From assembly GCA_030832455.1 (NCBI GenBank), contig JAURJB010000007.1, positions 1 through 47,365 of the forward strand: DNA of 47,365 bases, in the 5' to 3' direction. The position numbers and the translations under genes were made by a program. The DNA comes from Acidimicrobiales bacterium. Lineage in GTDB: Bacteria > Actinomycetota > Acidimicrobiia > Acidimicrobiales > Ilumatobacteraceae. The number at the start of each line of letters is the position of its first letter. Position 1 is the first letter of the stretch. Below, piece by piece: positions 3,712 through 21,191 of the stretch. The notes under the pieces are model-generated. The model was not told where the DNA came from. It was given only the letters and a program-made list of their open reading frames with translations, and did no database searches.

Positions 3712-4532
3712 CCGCGCAAGACTTTGATCCAACAACGGTGCCAATTAGGCCCGCTGCAACCGTGATGTTGTTGCGCGATCATCCGATCAACGGTGTTGAA
3801 GTGTTTATGTTGCAACGTACGTTGAGTGCCGCGTTTGCTAAAGGAATGTATGTCTTTCCTGGCGGGCGAGTAGATGCAAATGATGCAGAAGAAACGCTTG
3901 AAGCACATTGCGATGGAATGACTGATGAAGAAGCCAGTGCATTGTTGGGGCTATCACATGGCGGGTTGTCGTATTGGGTTGCGGTAATCAGAGAATGCTT
4001 TGAGGAAGCAGGAGTGCTGCTAGCTCGTTATGGCGAGACCACAGACCTCATTCGTTTTGAAGGCGATGAACTCATTGCTCGCTACATGACCGCACGACAC
4101 GCTGTGCATGAAGGTTCGATTTCAATGATGCAGTTGTGCGCAGATGAAGACCTGCACCTGATCACAGACAATATTCACTATGTAAGTCATTGGATTACAC
4201 CACTTGGCGAGGCACGAAGGTTTGACACCCGATTCTTTGTTGCGCGGGCCCCCGATGGACAAGAGCCACTTCATGACGACAACGAAACCATCGACAGCCT
4301 GTGGGTAACGCCCGCAGATGCACTCGAGCGACATAGCAACGGAAGCTTGGCAATGATGCCACCGACTATCCGTAATCTTGAGTTCTTGCTTCCTTTCGGC
4401 ACCACAGCCGATGCATTAGTTGCAGCAAAAAAGATTGGGACTCCAACTGCAATTGTTCCGCAATTGCGTGTTGATGAAGAAGGTCGGGTTATTGGCGTGT
4501 CGTTTCCCGGGGACGCAGACTTTAAGAACTAG
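3708..4532 (+). CDS. Nudix hydrolase with split Nudix box (NUDT19-like layout)
   Basis: A 274-residue Nudix-fold hydrolase. The Nudix box is recognisable but interrupted: the GG(R) element sits at residues 52-54 (FPGGRVDAND) and the metal-binding half RECFEEAG at 95-102, leaving about 40 residues between them instead of the usual few. This is the arrangement of NUDT19-type CoA diphosphatases, so a CoA or acyl-CoA substrate is possible but not shown. The inserted segment (DEEASALLGLSHGGLSYW) is amphipathic. The stop overlaps the convergent mrp stop within the palindrome CTAG. Confidence 0.82.
   Translation: MTAQDFDPTTVPIRPAATVMLLRDHPINGVEVFMLQRTLSAAFAKGMYVFPGGRVDANDAEETLEAHCDGMTDEEASALLGLSHGGLSYWVAVIRECFEEAGVLLARYGETTDLIRFEGDELIARYMTARHAVHEGSISMMQLCADEDLHLITDNIHYVSHWITPLGEARRFDTRFFVARAPDGQEPLHDDNETIDSLWVTPADALERHSNGSLAMMPPTIRNLEFLLPFGTTADALVAAKKIGTPTAIVPQLRVDEEGRVIGVSFPGDADFKN
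4529..4532. other. Shared bidirectional stop palindrome CTAG
   Basis: The four bases CTAG give TAG on the plus strand (4530-4532, Nudix gene) and TAG on the minus strand (4531-4529, mrp). No terminator fits between the two convergent genes. Confidence 0.9.
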
Positions 4533-5713
4533 TTGCGTTGCGAAATTGACACTTGCACTACGTCTTCGGTGCGTGCAGAGCAACCGATCATGTCTTGAGT
4601 CGACACTGTTTCATCGATGATGCGTTGGGCAATTGTCGTAAAGGCTTGCGCAGCAGCACCCGATCGCGACAGCACAATTGGTTCACCAGTGTCACTGCCA
4701 TGGGCAACTGCAGATTCAATTGGAATGTTGCCAAGTAACGGTGCGCCAATCTCGGTGGCAAGTGTTTGCCCGCCGCCTTTGCCAAACAGTTCGTACTCGG
4801 TGCCGTGTTCGCACGTAAACGACGTCATGTTCTCGATCACACCGGCAACACGAAGAAAACTACGACGCGCCATATCTGCCGCACGAATGGCAACCTTCTG
4901 TGCCGAGACTGCAGGGGTGGTGACAATAATTAGGTCAGTGCGCGGCAACATGCGGGCTAATCCCATTTGCACATCGCCCGTACCGGGTGGCATATCGATG
5001 AGCAAGTAATCAAGGTCGCCCCAATGAACATCGTGCAAAAACTGTTCGACCGCTTTAGTCAACATCAGACCGCGCCACATCAGTGCAGTCCCTTCGTCTT
5101 CAACAAGCATTCCTGTTGACACAACTTTCAGAAGTCCTGCACCAACGTGGCGTTCATTAGGAATGATGCGCGCCTTGTCGCTGCCATCAGCTCGATGAGC
5201 CTCAAGTCGATCGGGCATGTTCAACATGCGCGGGATCGAGAACCCCCAAATGTCTGCATCCAATACTCCAACGACATGTCCTTGTGCTGCAAGTGCGGCA
5301 GCCAAGTTGACGGTTACTGAACTTTTGCCCACACCACCTTTGCCACTGGCAATCGCAAGCACTCGAGCATTGAGCGGGATTTGTGTTTCGTTCGCCTGCT
5401 CGCGAGCATTCCACCGTGCACGGGTCATCACCGCACTGCGTTCGTCTGCAGTCATCTCGCCCCAGTCGATGGTTACCTTGCTCACTCCAGGATGAACGAG
5501 CACACGTGATTCGATGTCGTTCTTGATCTGGACGCGCAACGGACAGCCCTTAATGGTCAGTTTCATGCCAATTGCAACAACGCCTTCGGCGCTGACTGTG
5601 ATGTCGCCTGCCATGCCCAAATCGACAATATTGTCGCCTAGTTCGGGGTCCATGACGGCCCGAAGCAGTTCACGCACCACATCAGCAGTGGGCGGGTGGG
5701 CCTTGCTGGTCAT
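4529..5713 (-). CDS. mrp: Mrp/ApbC-type Fe-S cluster carrier ATPase
   Basis: A 394-residue cytosolic P-loop ATPase that is thought to carry or deliver Fe-S clusters. The N-terminal MIP18/DUF59 domain occupies residues 10-95 (MDPELGDNIVDLGM, IKGCPLRVQI). The deviant Walker A GKGGVGKSS is at 124-132, Walker B-like LDAD near 151 and DMPPGTGD at 240-247. The CxxC that holds the bridging cluster in many Mrp proteins is reduced here to a single Cys301 in TCEHGTEYELFG, which I believe is common in Actinobacteria. It stands next to and divergent from an ErpA-type carrier, which fits a role in Fe-S assembly for the nuo and bc genes. A -10 box TAGGTT lies 6 nt before the ATG. Confidence 0.9.
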   Translation of the reverse strand: MTSKAHPPTADVVRELLRAVMDPELGDNIVDLGMAGDITVSAEGVVAIGMKLTIKGCPLRVQIKNDIESRVLVHPGVSKVTIDWGEMTADERSAVMTRARWNAREQANETQIPLNARVLAIASGKGGVGKSSVTVNLAAALAAQGHVVGVLDADIWGFSIPRMLNMPDRLEAHRADGSDKARIIPNERHVGAGLLKVVSTGMLVEDEGTALMWRGLMLTKAVEQFLHDVHWGDLDYLLIDMPPGTGDVQMGLARMLPRTDLIIVTTPAVSAQKVAIRAADMARRSFLRVAGVIENMTSFTCEHGTEYELFGKGGGQTLATEIGAPLLGNIPIESAVAHGSDTGEPIVLSRSGAAAQAFTTIAQRIIDETVSTQDMIGCSARTEDVVQVSISQRN

Positions 5714-19384: not shown

Positions 19385-20176
19385 ATGAATCGTCAGCCAA
19401 TCACTTTTGTGGGTGGTGGCAACATGGGCAGCGCCATTATTGAAGGTCTCGTGCGCTCCGGATGGGCGGCCACCGACATCACGGTTGTCGAGTTGTCAGT
19501 TGATCGACGAAACATTCTTGCAACCATGTTTCCTGGAATCGTGACCAGCGAGTCAGTATTGCCATGCTCTGCAGGTGTGATTGCCGTGAAACCAGGTGGA
19601 GCAGCACAAGCGTGTCAAGCACTTGCTGCAGCCGGAGCTCAGCGCGTGTTGTCGATTGCTGCCGGGATCAGTGTGGCGACATTGCAAGAAGCAGCTGGTG
19701 ATCGCACTGCAGTGGTTCGCGCAATGCCAAACACTCCCGCGTTGATCGGTGAAGGAATGGCAGGAATCTGCGCATCTGATTCCACATCGGTTGAGGTAGT
19801 GCAGTGGGCTGAAGAAATATTGGGCGCGGTGGGCAAAGTGGTGCGTGTTCCTGAATCATTGATTGATGCAGTGACGGCAATTTCTGGTTCTGGTCCCGCG
19901 TATGTGTTTTTGGTGGCCGAGGCACTCACGAATTCTGCAATTGAACAAGGCCTGTCACCAGAAGTCGCCGACCTGTTGGTCCGACAACTGTTCGTCGGCT
20001 CGGCGCAGCTACTGGGACAGTCGCCAGAATCTGCTCAGCAATTGCGAGCACACGTAACGTCGCCAAACGGAGTAACTGCGGCGGCCATTGCCACACTGGA
20101 GGCATCAGGTTTGCGGAGTGCTATATCGGAGACGGTAAAAAGTGCAGTGATTCGCAGCCGTGAGATGGGTAAGTAG
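19385..20176 (+). CDS. proC: Pyrroline-5-carboxylate reductase
   Basis: A 263-residue cytosolic enzyme that reduces P5C to proline with NAD(P)H. The Rossmann loop is VGGGNMGSAIIEGL at residues 9-22; RAMPNTPALIGEG and the signature TAISGSGPAYVFLVAEAL follow, then VTSPNGVTAAAI near the end, all typical of ProC. Length is normal. It stands alone as a leaderless-type transcription unit behind a spaced inverted repeat and is followed by a strongly structured non-coding stretch. Confidence 0.95.
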   Translation: MNRQPITFVGGGNMGSAIIEGLVRSGWAATDITVVELSVDRRNILATMFPGIVTSESVLPCSAGVIAVKPGGAAQACQALAAAGAQRVLSIAAGISVATLQEAAGDRTAVVRAMPNTPALIGEGMAGICASDSTSVEVVQWAEEILGAVGKVVRVPESLIDAVTAISGSGPAYVFLVAEALTNSAIEQGLSPEVADLLVRQLFVGSAQLLGQSPESAQQLRAHVTSPNGVTAAAIATLEASGLRSAISETVKSAVIRSREMGK

Positions 20177-20179
20177 TCG

Positions 20180-20291
20180 CTAGGGTATGCCCTAGGTCAC
20201 GAACTCCGGACGGGGTTACCCCCCAACCGGGAGTCGCGCTTGTAAAAGTGCGCCGTTTGGGCCGGTGCCGTCGGGGGGTTGGCACCGGCCC
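20180..20291 (+). ncRNA. Candidate structured RNA / leader before the SAM adenosyltransferase gene
   Basis: The 139-bp gap between proC and the next gene holds four inverted repeats in a row. (1) CTAGGG/CCCTAG at 20180-20195. (2) ACTCC 20203-20207 with GGAGT 20230-20234, continued by GG/CC past one bulged G, enclosing GGGG-TTA-CCCC at 20212-20222. (3) CGCGCTT 20235-20241 with AAGTGCG 20246-20252, one G-U pair, closed by GTAA, a GNRA-type tetraloop. (4) GGGCCGGTGCC 20259-20269 with GGCACCGGCCC 20281-20291. Stems 2 and 3 abut and could stack. CCAACC (20223-20228) can also pair with GGTTGG (20277-20282), which would open stem 4 or form a pseudoknot. The stretch is richer in G+C than its surroundings. 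I do not recognise a known riboswitch class. Strand is assumed from the downstream gene. Confidence 0.5.
20259..20291 (+). terminator. Strong GC hairpin, possible attenuator
   Basis: Perfect 11-bp stem with an 11-nt loop, followed by attcgtatctc, only weakly U-rich. It lies 24 nt before the ATG at 20316. It could end the proC transcript, act as a conditional terminator, or close the structured leader. Confidence 0.45.
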
Positions 20292-20315
20292 ATTCGTATC
20301 TCTCGAGAACTCACC

Positions 20316-21191
20316 ATGACACATCGCTTCGATCACATTTCGTTCCTTTCTGATTATGGAACTCGAGATGAATTCGTTGGCATCGTGAAATGTGTTGTTG
20401 CTGACATTGCTCCACATGTGAACGTCATCGACATCACGCATGACATTCCAGCATTTGATGTTCGCGCAGGATCACTTGCGTTAGCCAGAGCAGTTTCCTA
20501 TGTTCCAAAAGGTGTGGTGTTAGCAGTTGTCGACCCAGGTGTTGGCACTTCGCGGCGCGCCATTGCGGTCAGCGTTTCTGGCGGAGATGGTGTGTTTATT
20601 GGGCCAGATAATGGCCTTTTGGCAATGGGTGTTGCGCTTGCAGGCGGAGCCGAGTTTGCTGTGGAACTGACAAATACGAAGTATCACTTGCCATCACCGG
20701 GAACCACGTTTGCAGGTCGAGATATTTTTGGTTCCGTCGCCGCACACATTTGCAACGGAGTTGAACTGAGTGAACTAGGTAATGAAATTGATACCGCTTC
20801 ACTACTTCCCGGCATCATTCCGATTACCCGAGATGAAAATGGGCAGCTCGTTGGCGAAGTGACGTGGGTAGATCATTTTGGGAATTGCCAACTCAATATC
20901 GGACCCGAAGAAATTGCTCAATGGGGATCACCGGTGCGGGTTTCTATCGGTAATGCGGATTCGCCGAATCATGTTGTTCGCTCCGTTCCTATTGTGAATA
21001 ACTTCTCCCAAATTGGTGGAGGCCTTGGACTCGTCATTGACAGTTTTGGAATGTTGGCGTTGTGTACTGACCGGGGCTCGGCTGCGGCCGAGTTAGACCT
21101 CGGACCAACAAACATGGTGACCATTAGCCAGGACCCGAATGCCGGTGGTGGCGTAAGCACCACAGTGCGTTTGGGTTCCAAGCCCAACTGA
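20316..21191 (+). CDS. SAM hydroxide adenosyltransferase (DUF62 family)
   Basis: A 291-residue enzyme of the SAM-dependent halogenase/hydroxide adenosyltransferase family, which splits S-adenosylmethionine to adenosine and methionine with water. Characteristic motifs: LSDYGTRDEFVGIVK, IDITHDIPAFDVRAG, VVDPGVGTSRRAI, FIGPDNGLL and, in the C-terminal domain, WVDHFGNCQLNI. The chlorinase/fluorinase loop is not evident, so hydrolase is the best call. ATG 20316 is preferred over the in-frame ATG at 20265, which lies inside the hairpin region. No proper ribosome site is visible apart from cgaga. The structured segment directly before it suggests RNA-level control. Confidence 0.85.
   Translation: MTHRFDHISFLSDYGTRDEFVGIVKCVVADIAPHVNVIDITHDIPAFDVRAGSLALARAVSYVPKGVVLAVVDPGVGTSRRAIAVSVSGGDGVFIGPDNGLLAMGVALAGGAEFAVELTNTKYHLPSPGTTFAGRDIFGSVAAHICNGVELSELGNEIDTASLLPGIIPITRDENGQLVGEVTWVDHFGNCQLNIGPEEIAQWGSPVRVSIGNADSPNHVVRSVPIVNNFSQIGGGLGLVIDSFGMLALCTDRGSAAAELDLGPTNMVTISQDPNAGGGVSTTVRLGSKPN

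Follow-up and report, generated by a model that had tools for sequence, protein, structure and literature searches.

The gap between proC and the gene for a SAM hydroxide adenosyltransferase (DUF62) very probably holds a stand-alone small RNA gene that would define a new sRNA family. Its predicted + strand transcript measures about 108 nt, is preceded by a separate promoter and closes with a 3′ hairpin resembling a terminator. As the best explanation of the observations as a whole, to which we assign a probability of roughly 0.55, this stand-alone sRNA would act in trans through a G6 loop, with a 6C-like RNA as its partner. The family would be near-universal in a widespread aquatic group of Actinomycetota, a phylum in which few sRNAs have been described, and the 6C-like RNA offers a specific and testable candidate partner. 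The window refers to the whole 47,365-nt stretch of DNA that was analysed, and the features of the locus are as follows.

19385..20176, + strand: proC (pyrroline-5-carboxylate reductase; Pfam P5CR_dimer, E 5.4e-34), upstream neighbour, outside the RNA gene
20181..20186, + strand: −10 box TAGGGT of the putative small RNA promoter, lying inside hairpin 1 of the initial annotation; TANNNT is kept in aligned relatives
20193..20301, + strand: predicted small RNA transcript of about 108 nt, its start placed from the −10 box and its end from the terminator hairpin
20203..20234, + strand: hairpin P1, a bulged stem with an inner GGGG/CCCC; sequence and shape differ among genera
20235..20252, + strand: hairpin P2, a 7-bp CGC...GCG stem with a GUAA loop here and a GNRA loop in many members
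20258..20292, + strand: hairpin P3, terminator-like, 12 pairs
20270..20280, + strand: P3 loop GUCGGGGGGUU with the invariant core GGGGGGUU, the proposed pairing site
20316..21191, + strand: SAM hydroxide adenosyltransferase (DUF62; Pfam SAM_HAT_N, E 3.7e-45), downstream neighbour and non-obligate partner of the RNA

Structure and conservation of the RNA

The initial annotation had described four inverted repeats in the proC–DUF62 gap, and all four were located there. The first, CTAGGG/CCCTAG, occupies 20180-20195, and the 11-bp GC stem of the last (20259-20269/20281-20291) ends 24 nt upstream of the ATG at 20316. The fold of 20160-20310 was better than that of all 200 dinucleotide shuffles (z −4.0), and the RNA alone gave a folding z of −3.2 in the shuffle comparison. 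The proposal of a structured RNA outside the known classes agrees with the Rfam 15 search, in which no family reached its gathering threshold across the whole window. Permissive filters likewise yielded no significant match in the window, the best local matches being insignificant, and RF01066 (6C RNA) had no match in the window's genome.

Orthologues of DUF62 were collected from related genomes, and reading and aligning the gaps upstream of them revealed a shared RNA. Its common architecture consists of a variable 5′ P1, the CGC...GCG stem P2 and a long P3 with the loop RUC-GGGGGG-UU. A covariance model built from the RNA of the window's family (R1) found matches in 139 of the 150 Ilumatobacteraceae genomes, typically one strong match per genome; the match in the window lies at 20228-20304 (E 1.8e-20). 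The additional matches seen in a few genomes were weak, fragmentary or on the mirror strand. Those at L200, L206, L207, L215 and L216 lack the loop and were discarded, and the weak minus-strand matches were rejected as mirror matches of the palindromic stem. In the rest of the order and phylum the R1 search found the RNA almost absent, with first-look filters that lower sensitivity there. Two R1 matches in other families (L078 and L080) were also set aside, as they resemble 6C-like RNAs on the wrong strand; no Rfam match was obtained at these loci.

Covariation in relatives, which the initial annotation had named as the check on its proposal, was found. Changes on both sides of a pair occurred at 14 of the 19 pairs and amounted to 118 cells among 76 distinct sequences; the shuffle mean was 27.8, none of 500 shuffles reached the native count, and sliding the partner gave at most 17. 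A smaller MAFFT alignment agreed with this result. Among the same 76 sequences, P2 showed both-side changes at 6 of 7 pairs with 90% of cells paired, and P3 at 8 of 12 pairs with 99.3% of cells paired. Since the P3 cells include many G-U pairs and almost no mismatches, the + strand is taken to be the transcribed RNA. The opposite-strand reading, with a 6C-like RNA encoded on the minus strand, was rejected on the same grounds, as the G-U cells of the + strand would turn into A-C mismatches. No row of the 77-row alignment and none of the 75 loci tested departs from the core GGGGGGUU, and the bases 5′ of it are slightly variable (RUC, or an extra U in one subgroup).

As an RNA structure, the set of four repeats stood in part. 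Across the 76 sequences, repeats 3 and 4 are retained and show compensatory changes; repeat 2 is present but variable, whereas repeat 1 is not conserved: CTAGGG/CCCTAG is lost in relatives, and TANNNT at the same place is retained. Judged from these alignments, the conserved RNA comprises hairpins 2–4 (20203-20292), and hairpin 1 is the predicted −10 promoter region.

A 5′ CCCCCC run was observed in 9 of the 75 loci, and in the window's genus P1 carries ACCCCCC. This P1 segment might base-pair with the G6 loop of the same molecule, a possible self-inhibition limited to the CCCCCC-bearing genomes.

Promoter, terminator and gene context

A promoter motif, GTGACNCTTTTCWCA-N17/18-TANNNT, was identified upstream of the RNA in 53 of the 75 loci, compared with 0.27% of random windows from the same loci. 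The own promoter expected of a stand-alone sRNA gene was thereby found, with the −10 box as its only recognisable part in the window. The same applies to the window's genus, in which the upstream part of the promoter is not recognisable and the −10 box alone remains. The P3 stem is present in all members; the U-tract following it is clear in many, absent in many GC-rich members and weak in the window.

An element similar to TGTGA-N6-TCACA, with a CRP/FNR-type resemblance, overlaps the −35 region at most loci of the family (L074, L089 and L161 among them). The GTGACNCTTTTCWCA part of the promoter motif, which resembles this inverted repeat, may be a candidate regulator site.

In most genomes the gene order is proC, RNA, DUF62, and several departures from it were observed. 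An Asp/Glu racemase gene lies next to the RNA in L071, L072, L183 and L190, where DUF62 starts 720-780 nt beyond, and L044 has just a racemase-matching fragment between the RNA and DUF62. The neighbour in L170 is a CoA-transferase family III gene, and DUF62 was not found nearby. In L162 proC is divergent and the RNA is still present. In L198, L202, L204, L209 and L210, the weakest family matches (31-35 bits), the RNA lies 3′ of DUF62 and convergent with proC; these loci keep the stem, GGGGGGTT and a region resembling the promoter.

This variation bears directly on the function that the initial annotation had favoured, namely a leader that senses a metabolite and controls the SAM hydroxide adenosyltransferase gene. 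A cis-acting riboswitch or leader would fit the position of the RNA directly 5′ of DUF62 in most genera, and in the window's genus no separate promoter is visible for DUF62. We nevertheless regard this reading as highly improbable: the next gene is elsewhere a racemase or a CoA-transferase, or the RNA lies 3′ of DUF62, arrangements that a cis-acting DUF62 leader does not explain, and the RNA has its own promoter motif in the 53 loci mentioned above. A riboswitch is expected to lie always 5′ of, and codirectional with, the gene it regulates, and neither the L202 group nor the racemase and CoA-transferase loci follow this arrangement. The suggested pairing of CCAACC with GGTTGG, as a switch or pseudoknot, did not hold up either. 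CCAAC was present 5′ of the last stem in at most 11 of the 75 loci, all near the window's genus, so that this pair does not show the conservation expected of mutually exclusive pairing in a riboswitch. A SAM riboswitch was rejected from the gene context together with the lack of conserved switching by this pair.

Many relatives also carry a separate promoter-like hexamer for DUF62, which argues further against a leader. This −10-like hexamer, TASCRT, was detected between the RNA and DUF62 in 23 of 63 loci, nearly always 11-30 nt 5′ of the start codon, against a background of about 0.02 per 70 nt. No such hexamer was found in 20292-20316 of the window or in its nearest relatives, and transcription of DUF62 there may depend on read-through from the RNA. 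Such read-through could contribute to DUF62 expression in the window's genus.

The least probable of the readings is a plain proC terminator accompanied by chance repeats, which the initial annotation had given as its alternative. The last hairpin does resemble an intrinsic terminator, and the end of proC lies just 5′ of the RNA. However, the conservation of P2 and the loop exceeds what a terminator needs, a promoter separates proC from the RNA, and the RNA is kept in genomes with proC in divergent (L162) or convergent (the L202 group) orientation.

A 6C-like RNA as candidate partner of the G6 loop

For a stand-alone sRNA of this kind, trans action through the invariant G6 loop as a base-pairing seed is the most likely mode of function. 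The sRNA would be transcribed from its own promoter between proC and the RNA and would end at P3, leaving GGGGGGUU exposed in the P3 loop as a seed for pairing in trans. The G6 loop would pair with runs of five to seven C in the hairpin loops of a 6C-like RNA, and this loop–loop pairing would withhold 6C from G-rich mRNA targets, giving the new RNA the role of a sponge or counter-regulator.

In many Acidimicrobiales, a 6C-like RNA whose loops contain C5-C8 runs was identified upstream of a HAD-acyltransferase fusion gene (L218-L247). A family-specific covariance model of this RNA (R3; match cut-off E 0.01) gave matches in 139 of the 150 family genomes, about a dozen of them weak. The copy in the window's genome (L235) lies on contig C48 at 4467-4579. 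One family locus scored 32.3 bits against RF01066, under the gathering score of 47; the 6C-like RNA is probably missed by current annotation, this sole family locus scanned falling below the Rfam threshold.

Between the G6 loop and the 6C-like loops, including the copy in the window's genome, 6-7 bp are possible, at −12.4 to −16.0 kcal/mol. This pairing is a lead and not a proof, because complementary C and G tracts always pair, and 11% of the shuffled G6 loops equalled the native loop in pairing with a 6C loop. A sponge is expected to expose unpaired G-rich sequence that complements a C-rich sRNA encoded in the same genome; this arrangement was observed, each of the two RNAs being present in 139 of the 150 family genomes. 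6C-like loci also occur in several families of the order in which a search with a first-look filter, of limited sensitivity outside Ilumatobacteraceae, did not find the G6-loop RNA. A matched sRNA pair in Ilumatobacteraceae, in which the C-run loops of the 6C-like RNA and the invariant G6 loop would regulate one another by loop–loop pairing and the new RNA would serve as a sponge for 6C, is a tentative proposal to which we give somewhat less than even odds. The RUC and UU flanks of the G run are conserved, which 6C pairing does not fully explain and which stands against a sponge.

These flanks are also what favours a stand-alone sRNA with a protein, and not an RNA, as the binding partner of its G-rich loop: RUC-GGGGGG-UU is nearly invariant, more than C-run pairing alone requires. 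We consider protein binding improbable, and less so the possibility that the G6 loop pairs directly with mRNAs or with an RNA other than 6C, an unlikely but appreciable alternative. Direct targeting is backed equally by the findings that point to an independent gene whose exposed loop never varies. That mRNAs are the usual targets of sRNAs also speaks for it. Against it, the genome contains very few perfect complements of GGGGGGUU when full-length matches are counted: the octamer AACCCCCC has 9 sites, one of which is the opposite strand of the RNA itself. Several of the full complements fall within coding frames or tRNA-like sequence, and the potential mRNA targets among the 9 sites are few and scattered, with no obvious set of leaders.

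Known systems and a related RNA in a second family

The 6C RNA of mycobacteria binds several mRNAs via its C-rich loops. Its interaction with mRNA targets has been described, as has the inhibition of growth upon its overexpression (PMC8628891). Like the RNA described here, 6C RNA (RF01066) is an actinobacterial sRNA with a homopolymer run in hairpin loops, but it has two hairpins with C6 loops, whereas the present RNA carries a G6 loop, lies at a different locus and does not match RF01066. In Bacillus subtilis, the G-rich regions of RosA bind and control the C-rich sRNAs RoxS and FsrA, and RsaI of Staphylococcus is similar (PMC8216469). RosA and RsaI, both sponge sRNAs, share with the present RNA a stand-alone gene and G-rich regions complementary to C-rich sRNAs. 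RosA differs in its length of about 229 nt and its three G-rich regions, two of them predicted to be single-stranded (PMC8216469), whereas the G6 of the present RNA lies in a terminator loop. Both belong to another phylum, and the comparison concerns gene type and G-rich regions. If the pairing with the 6C-like RNA is true, opposing homopolymer loops would form a simple RNA–RNA control comparable to Bacillus RosA. SAM and SAH riboswitches resemble the present RNA as structured RNAs 5′ of a SAM-consuming enzyme gene, but the present RNA has no Rfam match and its gene association is not conserved. The literature searched contained nothing relevant on ncRNA in Ilumatobacter or Acidimicrobiia, nor did it yield an RNA that counteracts 6C.

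In genus g42 of family f27, a three-hairpin RNA with G5-6 loops (L248-L254) was observed just 3′ of a CO-dehydrogenase-type flavoprotein gene, a locus unrelated to that of the window's RNA; searches of other f27 genera did not find it. Two g42 members fold with z of −5.2 and −7.2, and 9 pairs are changed on both sides between them. R1 finds the g42 RNAs weakly. A covariance model from these two g42 sequences only (R2) also matched L291, inside a polyketide synthase-like frame, which was rejected as a chance match; its E-value was similar to those of the Ilumatobacteraceae matches given below, and values near 1e-5 with this two-sequence model are thus unsafe alone. R2 finds the window's RNA at 20195-20307, together with two other Ilumatobacteraceae members, and the g42 RNA is likely homologous to that of the window's family.
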